NCBI RefSeq assembly: GCF_014696355.1
Contig: NZ_JACJQA010000003.1
Span: 124,001 to 188,000 of the forward strand
From: Pseudanabaena sp. FACHB-1998
Lineage (GTDB): Bacteria; Cyanobacteriota; Cyanobacteriia; Pseudanabaenales; Pseudanabaenaceae
DNA length: 64,000 nt
Direction: 5' to 3'
Part shown: positions 945 through 57,638 of the stretch, piece by piece
Layout of the letters: the number at the start of each line of letters is the position of its first letter
Position numbering within the stretch: position 1 is the first letter of the stretch
Translations under genes and position numbers: made by a program
Notes under the pieces: generated by a model
The model's database searches: none
Seen by the model: the letters and a program-made list of their open reading frames with translations, nothing else
What the model was told of the DNA's origin: nothing

Positions 945-1057
945 TATAGCGGTGGTCACTTGCATTAGGACAAATCAAAATCCAAGAAGCAAGTTGTGGT
1001 ACTTCCCGTCCCAACTCGTCTTCTGGAGTTGTGTTCTAACAAAAATGGCAACAGCTA
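945..1057. repeat. Decayed copy of a TATAGC-ended MITE-like element
   Basis: Read on the minus strand, this segment (TAGCTGTTGCCAT... through TTAGAACACAA... to ...AATGCAAGTGA...CGCTATA) matches the flanks and arms of the element at 21750-21865. The central palindrome here has several mismatches, unlike the perfect palindrome in the other copy, so this looks like an older, eroded copy. Together with the palindromes at 822-876 and 1093-1137 it accounts for most of the 391-bp gap. Confidence 0.65.
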
Positions 1058-1092
1058 ATCCCTTCCGAGTCTAAAAAATGGACATTAAAACC

Positions 1093-1137
1093 CAAGAATT
1101 AGCTATGCGGCGCGAAGCACCGCATAGCTAATTCTTG
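1093..1137. repeat. Palindrome of the CAAGAATTAGCT family
   Basis: Arms 1093-1110 and 1120-1137 (18 bp) are perfectly complementary around CGCGAAGCA. The same arm family recurs at 2730-2770 and, interrupted by an insertion, at 57437-57595. A spurious upstream TTG reading of the next gene begins inside it. Confidence 0.9.
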
Positions 1138-1200
1138 AGTGGGAAAGGAGTAGCTACTTATTTAAAAGCGACATATTTGTGTTGGAGAAATAGACAAACA

Positions 1201-3265: not shown

Positions 3266-3320
3266 TATAGCAAGATACAAAGTGGCGGCGCAAAGCGCCG
3301 CCACTTTGTATCTTGCTATA
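3266..3320. repeat. Perfect palindrome, 26-bp arms, TATAGC ends
   Basis: Arms 3266-3291 and 3295-3320 are complementary around AAA. It starts TATAGCAAGATAC and ends with the exact complement GTATCTTGCTATA, so it has the TA + TAGC ends seen on other elements in this window. Confidence 0.9.
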
Positions 3321-21663: not shown

Positions 21664-21747
21664 TATAGCAATATAAGTTTTGATTAGGGCATAAAATCCA
21701 AAAAGCGAGTTGCGGCGCTTCGCGCCGCAACTCGCTTTTTGGGTTTT
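21664..21747. repeat. TATAGCAAT element with GCGAGTTGCGGCGC palindrome
   Basis: A perfect palindrome (arms 21698-21718 and 21722-21742, loop TTC) preceded by TATAGCAATATAAGTTTTG. The same flank plus palindrome occurs, on the other strand, at 57476-57559, matching over roughly 55 bp outside and inside the stem. Confidence 0.85.
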
Positions 21748-21749
21748 AG

Positions 21750-21865
21750 ATAGCTGTTGCCATTCTGGTTAGAACACAAACCCCAGAAGACTAGGTGCGG
21801 CGCTTCGCGCCGCACCTAGTCTTCTGGGGTTTTGATTTTTCCCAATGCAAGTGATCACAGCTATA
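21750..21865. repeat. ATAGCTGT / ACAGCTAT MITE-like element with perfect palindrome
   Basis: About 116 bp. Ends ATAGCTGTTGCCATTCTGG and GCAAGTGATCACAGCTAT enclose a palindrome with arms 21778-21803 and 21807-21832 around TTC. Homologous along its whole length to 945-1057 (minus strand), and its left flank to 45933-45962. The palindromes here and just before it fill the 440-bp gap between the protease and the J-domain gene. Confidence 0.85.
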
Positions 21866-22012
21866 TTTCTCTTTATTTTAAGATATAGCGTTACAATCTA
21901 AGGATTTGGCACAATTTATAGCTTTTAGCAAAACTTTAGTTTTATAATTGTAGCAATACGACTTTTGTCGTAAACGATCGCCACCATTGCATATTCATGG
22001 TCAAAGCGAAAT

Positions 22013-57377: not shown

Positions 57378-57436
57378 TCATCGTGGTTCCTTTCTCTAAG
57401 GAAAGGAGCCATTATCTAGAAATAGACATTAAGACC

Positions 57437-57595
57437 CAAGAATTATAGCGAAGCAAGAGTTAGCCAGTACAAACCAAAACCAAAAAAGCGAGTTGCGGCG
57501 CGAAGCGCCGCAACTCGCTTTTTTGGTTTTATGTCTTAAGCAAAACTTACATTGCTATAGCTGTGCGGGGCTTCGCGCCGCACAGCTAATTCTTA
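57437..57595. repeat. CAAGAATTAGCTGTGCGG palindrome split by a TATAGC element
   Basis: Left arm ...CCAAGAATTA ends at 57445 and resumes as GCTGTGCGG at 57560; together they pair with CCGCACAGCTAATTCTT at 57578-57594. Between lies 57446-57559, which starts TAGCGAAG and ends CATTGCTATA and contains a 26-bp-arm palindrome (57476-57501 / 57505-57530, loop GAA). The junctions are consistent with a duplicated TA. Confidence 0.88.
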
Positions 57596-57638
57596 GGTGA
57601 GAAGGAAGTATATCCAACTACTTATAATTTCTCAAAGT

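Follow-up and report, generated by a model that had tools for sequence, protein, structure and literature searches.

Known miniature elements and related repeats

RUP, which goes together with IS630-Spn1, is described as an element of ~107 bp with more than 100 intergenic copies and IS630-like ends, which uses a TA target and also occurs as an insertion within other mobile elements (PMC3049150, PMC2229807). The element described here, designated family A, resembles RUP, as far as the published description goes, in being short, intergenic and multicopy and in having IS630-like ends and a TA target. Two differences can be named. First, the two RUP descriptions, in the parts drawn upon, do not mention a perfect hairpin at the centre whose arms covary and whose loop inverts, as in family A; second, the host of RUP belongs to a different phylum from Pseudanabaena. 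The small dispersed repeats of Nostoc, reportedly described by Elhai et al. in 2008, are said to be tiny (21-27 nt), to sit inside one another and inside minitransposons and to show compensatory changes, and an RNA route is said to have been proposed for them. Family A differs from these repeats in being a 112-bp unit with a TA duplication and IS630 ends. Nezha and other cyanobacterial MITEs, which are named in PMC10969869 and PMC3733652, have inverted terminal repeats, as family A does. The REP tag GTAG/CGTC, found at one end of a 20-40 bp palindrome, is absent from family A, whose hairpin arms start with AAAACC.

Template switching between short inverted repeats, or quasipalindrome correction, has been reported to lead to homogenization of the arms and inversion of the spacer, including GAA to TTC (PMC8604942; see also PMC8794818). 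Those studies concern yeast genes and RNA genes, whereas here the process is deduced from comparing the many copies of a MITE family.

Structure of the nested insertion

The window, that is the whole stretch of 64,000 nucleotides that was analysed, covers positions 124001-188000 of contig C23 in a 4.78-Mb draft assembly of Pseudanabaena, and the site lies between an nrtD-like gene and recQ, which are convergent. The mobile unit is 112 bp long (57446-57557, TAGC...GCTA) and is accompanied by one duplicated TA; a direct read of the window places TATAGC at 57444-57449 and GCTATA at 57554-57559, and a TA copy stands on either side of the insert, which interrupts one arm of a host hairpin belonging to a second family (family B). 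The features are as follows.

57412-57437, plus strand: side module of family B (ATCTAGAAATAGACATTAAGACCC region), with a left terminal repeat that has decayed
57438-57445, plus strand: outer portion of the host hairpin's left arm, cut off by the insert (AAGAATTA)
57444-57445, no strand: left TA target copy, from direct reading and from empty sites with a single TA
57446-57557, plus strand: family A MITE, 112 bp, TAGC...GCTA, with ~59 intact copies sharing its end points
57446-57475, plus strand: left terminal region, similar to the IS630 element's outer (3') end
57476-57501, plus strand: left arm (26 bp) of the central perfect hairpin
57502-57504, plus strand: loop GAA; of the genome's other copies, read in the same orientation, about half have TTC
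57505-57530, plus strand: right arm of the central hairpin
57531-57557, minus strand: right terminal region, reading inward TAGCAATGTAAGTTTTGCTTAAGACAT and resembling the IS630 left end TAGGACATAA
57558-57559, no strand: right TA target copy, from direct reading
57560-57594, plus strand: remainder of the host hairpin (inner left arm, loop, right arm)
57595-57610, plus strand: family B right end (AGGTGAGAAGGAAGTA; consensus GGGTGGGAAGGGAGTA)
about 1056-1152, plus strand: family B copy without an insert, also in this window, which represents a paralogous empty site

A preliminary description of this DNA had reported a nested insertion, and this observation is real and exact. It removed 114 bp (57446-57559), the element plus one TA, which is the correct route to the empty site: the excision joins AAGAATTA (57438-57445) to GCTGTGCGG (57560-57568), and the product is the exact complement of CCGCACAGCTAATTCTT (57578-57594). 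The palindrome of the insert itself, also reported there, can be read directly as perfect 26-bp arms (57476-57501 and 57505-57530) around the loop GAA.

We consider it highly probable that 57446-57557 is a non-autonomous IS630-type MITE that inserted into an older family B MITE and whose core is maintained by template switching. The assignment to IS630-derived MITEs is made because the ends are precise and shared, the copies are many, TA is duplicated, empty sites exist, and an IS630 element with matching ends is present in the same genome and genus. An IS630 transposase would act in trans on the TATAGC ends and move the element by cut-and-paste into a TA, here the TA in one hairpin arm of the family B copy between nrtD and recQ, with the central 55-nt hairpin travelling as cargo. 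Between moves, as the variation among copies suggests, template switching at replication would copy one arm onto the other and invert the loop, and this would keep the palindrome perfect while the hairpin sequence drifts. As a nested insertion the case is ordinary for mobile DNA; of more interest is the hairpin core, which would correct itself and flip.

The host hairpin as a second miniature element

Once restored, the host hairpin has perfect 17-bp arms and matches more than 10 uninterrupted relatives in the genome (81-89% over ~80 bp). Intact family B copies, 72 to 97 bp long and situated at unrelated sites, have the form TA-CTCCCTTCCC...hairpin...GGGAAGGGAG-TA, and in the copy hit here the right end (57595-57610) is recognisable and the left end has decayed. 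The host hairpin, being the core of this TA-flanked family, identifies the host as a decayed copy of a second family of miniature elements, and one class did land in another, as the first account had it. The reverse nesting also occurs: a family B copy (L395) occupies the TA within a right end resembling that of family A (GTCC-TA...TA-ACAAGAATGG). Another family B copy (L422) is found at the centre of a further palindrome (CACGAAAGTGTGA-TA-TCACTTTCGTG).

Intergenic palindromes are very common in this genome, with 7.5% of intergenic TAs lying inside one, which could be taken to mean that the arrangement arose by chance, or that an unrelated insertion or deletion restored a palindrome. The probability of this is negligible, and the explanation is already refuted by the ~59 copies with identical ends and by the paralogous hosts that are uninterrupted. 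A preference of the element for palindromic targets was considered separately and is not claimed: the excess is ~8-fold relative to random TAs and mispaired flanks, but relative to intergenic TAs it is 9 of 59 (15%) against 7.5% (p = 0.03).

Distribution of family A and empty sites

When up to 3 mismatches are allowed, the left 21 bp of the element are found in 89 places of the genome and a reversed-pattern control in 0, so that chance is far from explaining the repeat. Distinct intact copies with both ends number ~59, all at different sites and nearly all with unrelated flanks; 51 of them measure exactly 116 bp including both TAs, and TA stands on both sides at this site and in most of the other copies. 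This search, proposed in the preliminary description, thus recovered many copies with the same TAGC...GCTA end points, and neither of the two outcomes that were to count against that description arose for this element. No open reading frame of at least 80 amino acids is interrupted by any of the family A copies with long flanks. Family A occurs across the genus as sampled, with identities that are mostly 82-90%, and in public genomes its left end is found almost only under the name Pseudanabaena, the other records being 'Phormidium tenue' and one uncultured cyanobacterium. Short, without a transposase gene, and present in many copies with shared end points, family A is best read as an IS630-derived MITE of Pseudanabaena that is comparable to RUP. 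A genus-wide MITE family is hereby identified together with its likely transposase, and it explains some of the abundance of palindromes in these genomes.

An orthologous empty site is available for one copy (L026): in three sister species (G001, G009, G017) the same genes meet there and the insert is absent. At the 57446-57557 locus no orthologous empty site was found, nrtD and recQ not being neighbours in the relatives, and in a second such comparison (copy L049) the flanking genes were not syntenic. Insertion at a single TA follows from the orthologous empty site of L026 and from the uninterrupted relatives of the host hairpin, both of which have one TA, and the TA target use postulated earlier is thereby upheld.

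It had also been claimed that palindrome-bearing elements themselves move. For family A this stands, with the palindrome as cargo; it cannot be carried over to palindromes generally, since most of those in the genome lack TAGC ends. A related explanation is that the hairpin is itself the mobile unit, in the manner of REP or SDR sequences, and that the TATAGC flanks are bystanders. Two families whose ends differ do have similar cores, and a chimera (L409) joins both; against this, the copies share ends that lie outside the hairpin, their limits fall exactly at TATAGC...GCTATA, and these ends are conserved while the hairpin sequence varies. For family A the explanation is largely refuted, and we regard it as very improbable. 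An ancestral MITE devoid of the hairpin was also sought among the copies and rejected: the sole short copy seen, a 50-bp family A derivative without hairpin (L162, ~1500-1550), is probably a product of deletion between two CAAAAC repeats.

Candidate transposase

The genome has 11 DDE_3 matches, and its IS630-family transposase genes end in TATAGCAAAGAAAGAGATAGTTAGGACAAA, which matches the family A ends. One IS630 type is represented in the draft genome of the window only by pieces at contig ends (C15, C8, C40 and C4 with the 3' end; C6 and C29 with the 5' end), no intact copy of this type being assembled there. Its two termini are TATAGCAAAGAAAGAGATAGTTAGGACAAATGACAG and TATAGCAAAAGAAGGGAAAGATAGGACATAATA, and its proteins match NF033545 with 124 bits (cut-off 100) and Pfam DDE_3 (PF13358). 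A full-length relative of 954 bp with both ends is assembled in a sister species, where the reading frame is split. In this genome the MITE left end agrees with the IS 3' end at 25 of 32 bp and the second end match amounts to 21 of 32, neither being near-identity, and in many sister genomes the 31-bp end of the IS is 90-94% identical to MITE ends (29 of 31 in sister species). Because the left end resembles the IS 3' end and TAGGACATAA is common to the right end and the IS 5' end, family A has the look of an internally deleted IS630 derivative. The initial comparison with IS630-like elements therefore agrees with the finding, in the same genome and genus, of an IS630 element (above the NF033545 cut-off, with DDE_3) that has the same TATAGCAA... 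ends, and from these sequence matches we infer that an IS630 transposase moves the family A MITE.

Several IS630 types with TATAGCAA ends coexist in the genome, and the same MITE might be moved by a different one, such as the L061 type with its TATAGCAAATTTCAATCTAGTG ends. This appears improbable, as the L061 ends diverge past ~9 bp whereas the type at the contig ends (C15/C8/C40) matches over ~30 bp. Two IS630 transposase genes (L142, 874-1742; L061, 1381-2335) are split over two frames, for which programmed frameshift or decay are both possible.

Evolution of the hairpin core

In 99 distinct copies from the genus whose orientation is defined, 2524 of 2574 arm pairs are Watson-Crick, and hairpin positions 8 and 12-16 show three or more pair types. 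It could be supposed that the hairpin is kept by selection as RNA, for example as a two-way transcription terminator, and that the compensatory changes reflect RNA structure; the terminator-like score on both strands and the convergent genes flanking this site would be in keeping with it. However, G.T pairs are not in excess over A.C pairs (19 vs 16 in the 99 copies), and many arm changes are transversions without a wobble intermediate. Furthermore, convergent sites are not enriched in a hand tally (~6 convergent, 5 divergent and 25 same-direction); as copy sites lie mostly between same-direction genes, selection for termination is not supported. No Rfam family matched near its gathering score. 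Retention as RNA is accordingly judged unlikely.

Maintenance by template switching is the reading to which the loop also points. The GAA and TTC types are about equally frequent in this genome (22:22, or 24:23 in another tally), and the state of the loop shows no linkage to the rest of the copy in a nearest-neighbour test within this genome (p = 0.34). In other species the ratio is skewed (38:14), so flipping is not at equilibrium everywhere. Strain SR411 contains a 397-bp duplication in which two MITE copies differ only in the loop (GAA vs TTT) and at one other base, and in the L216 copy of family A the right side has been rewritten as the complement of the left, which extends the arms from 26 to 37 bp. 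To judge from this variation, the covarying arms and the flipping loop would be traces of template switching at replication, a process known to leave such marks. GCGAAGC, a DNA mini-hairpin motif of unusual stability, is present on the GAA strand. Such mini-hairpins are discussed in PMC10527192. A folding program gives equal energy for both strands, and no strand asymmetry is therefore claimed.

Similar hairpin cores are present in two families that have different ends, and in the chimera L409 (~1500-1596) the left half belongs to family B, the right half to family A, and the two meet at the hairpin; this single case suggests that families may exchange sequence at the core. A broader proposal can be made, to which we give even weight for and against: several Pseudanabaena MITE families with different ends would share an interchangeable core rewritten by template switching, in which the arms are copied mutually, the GAA/TTC loop flips in place, the arms extend outward and chimeras form at the core. 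If this is true, the multicopy families amount to a natural record of template switching in a bacterium. Template switching is usually observed one locus at a time, and the ~100 comparable cores, whose arms and loops change together, provide a data set for its study at short inverted repeats in bacteria.

Further TATAGC-ended units

Other units in the window have related ends. A 55-bp perfect hairpin at 3266-3320, which starts with TATAGCAAG, ends with CTTGCTATA and has the loop AAA, is a TATAGC-ended unit composed of the hairpin only. At 21664-21866 there are two tandem MITE-like hairpin units whose right ends differ, being of the GATAGCTGTTGCCATTCT and the CACAGCTATA type; they suggest further subfamilies of TATAGC-ended elements. 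Finally, a second IS630 type with the end TATAGCAATCCTAAATGAGTTGTGG appears to have a hairpin MITE of its own with the same end (L069, L152, L156), and in sister species this TATAGCAATCCTAAATGAGTTGTGG-ended hairpin MITE adjoins family A copies.
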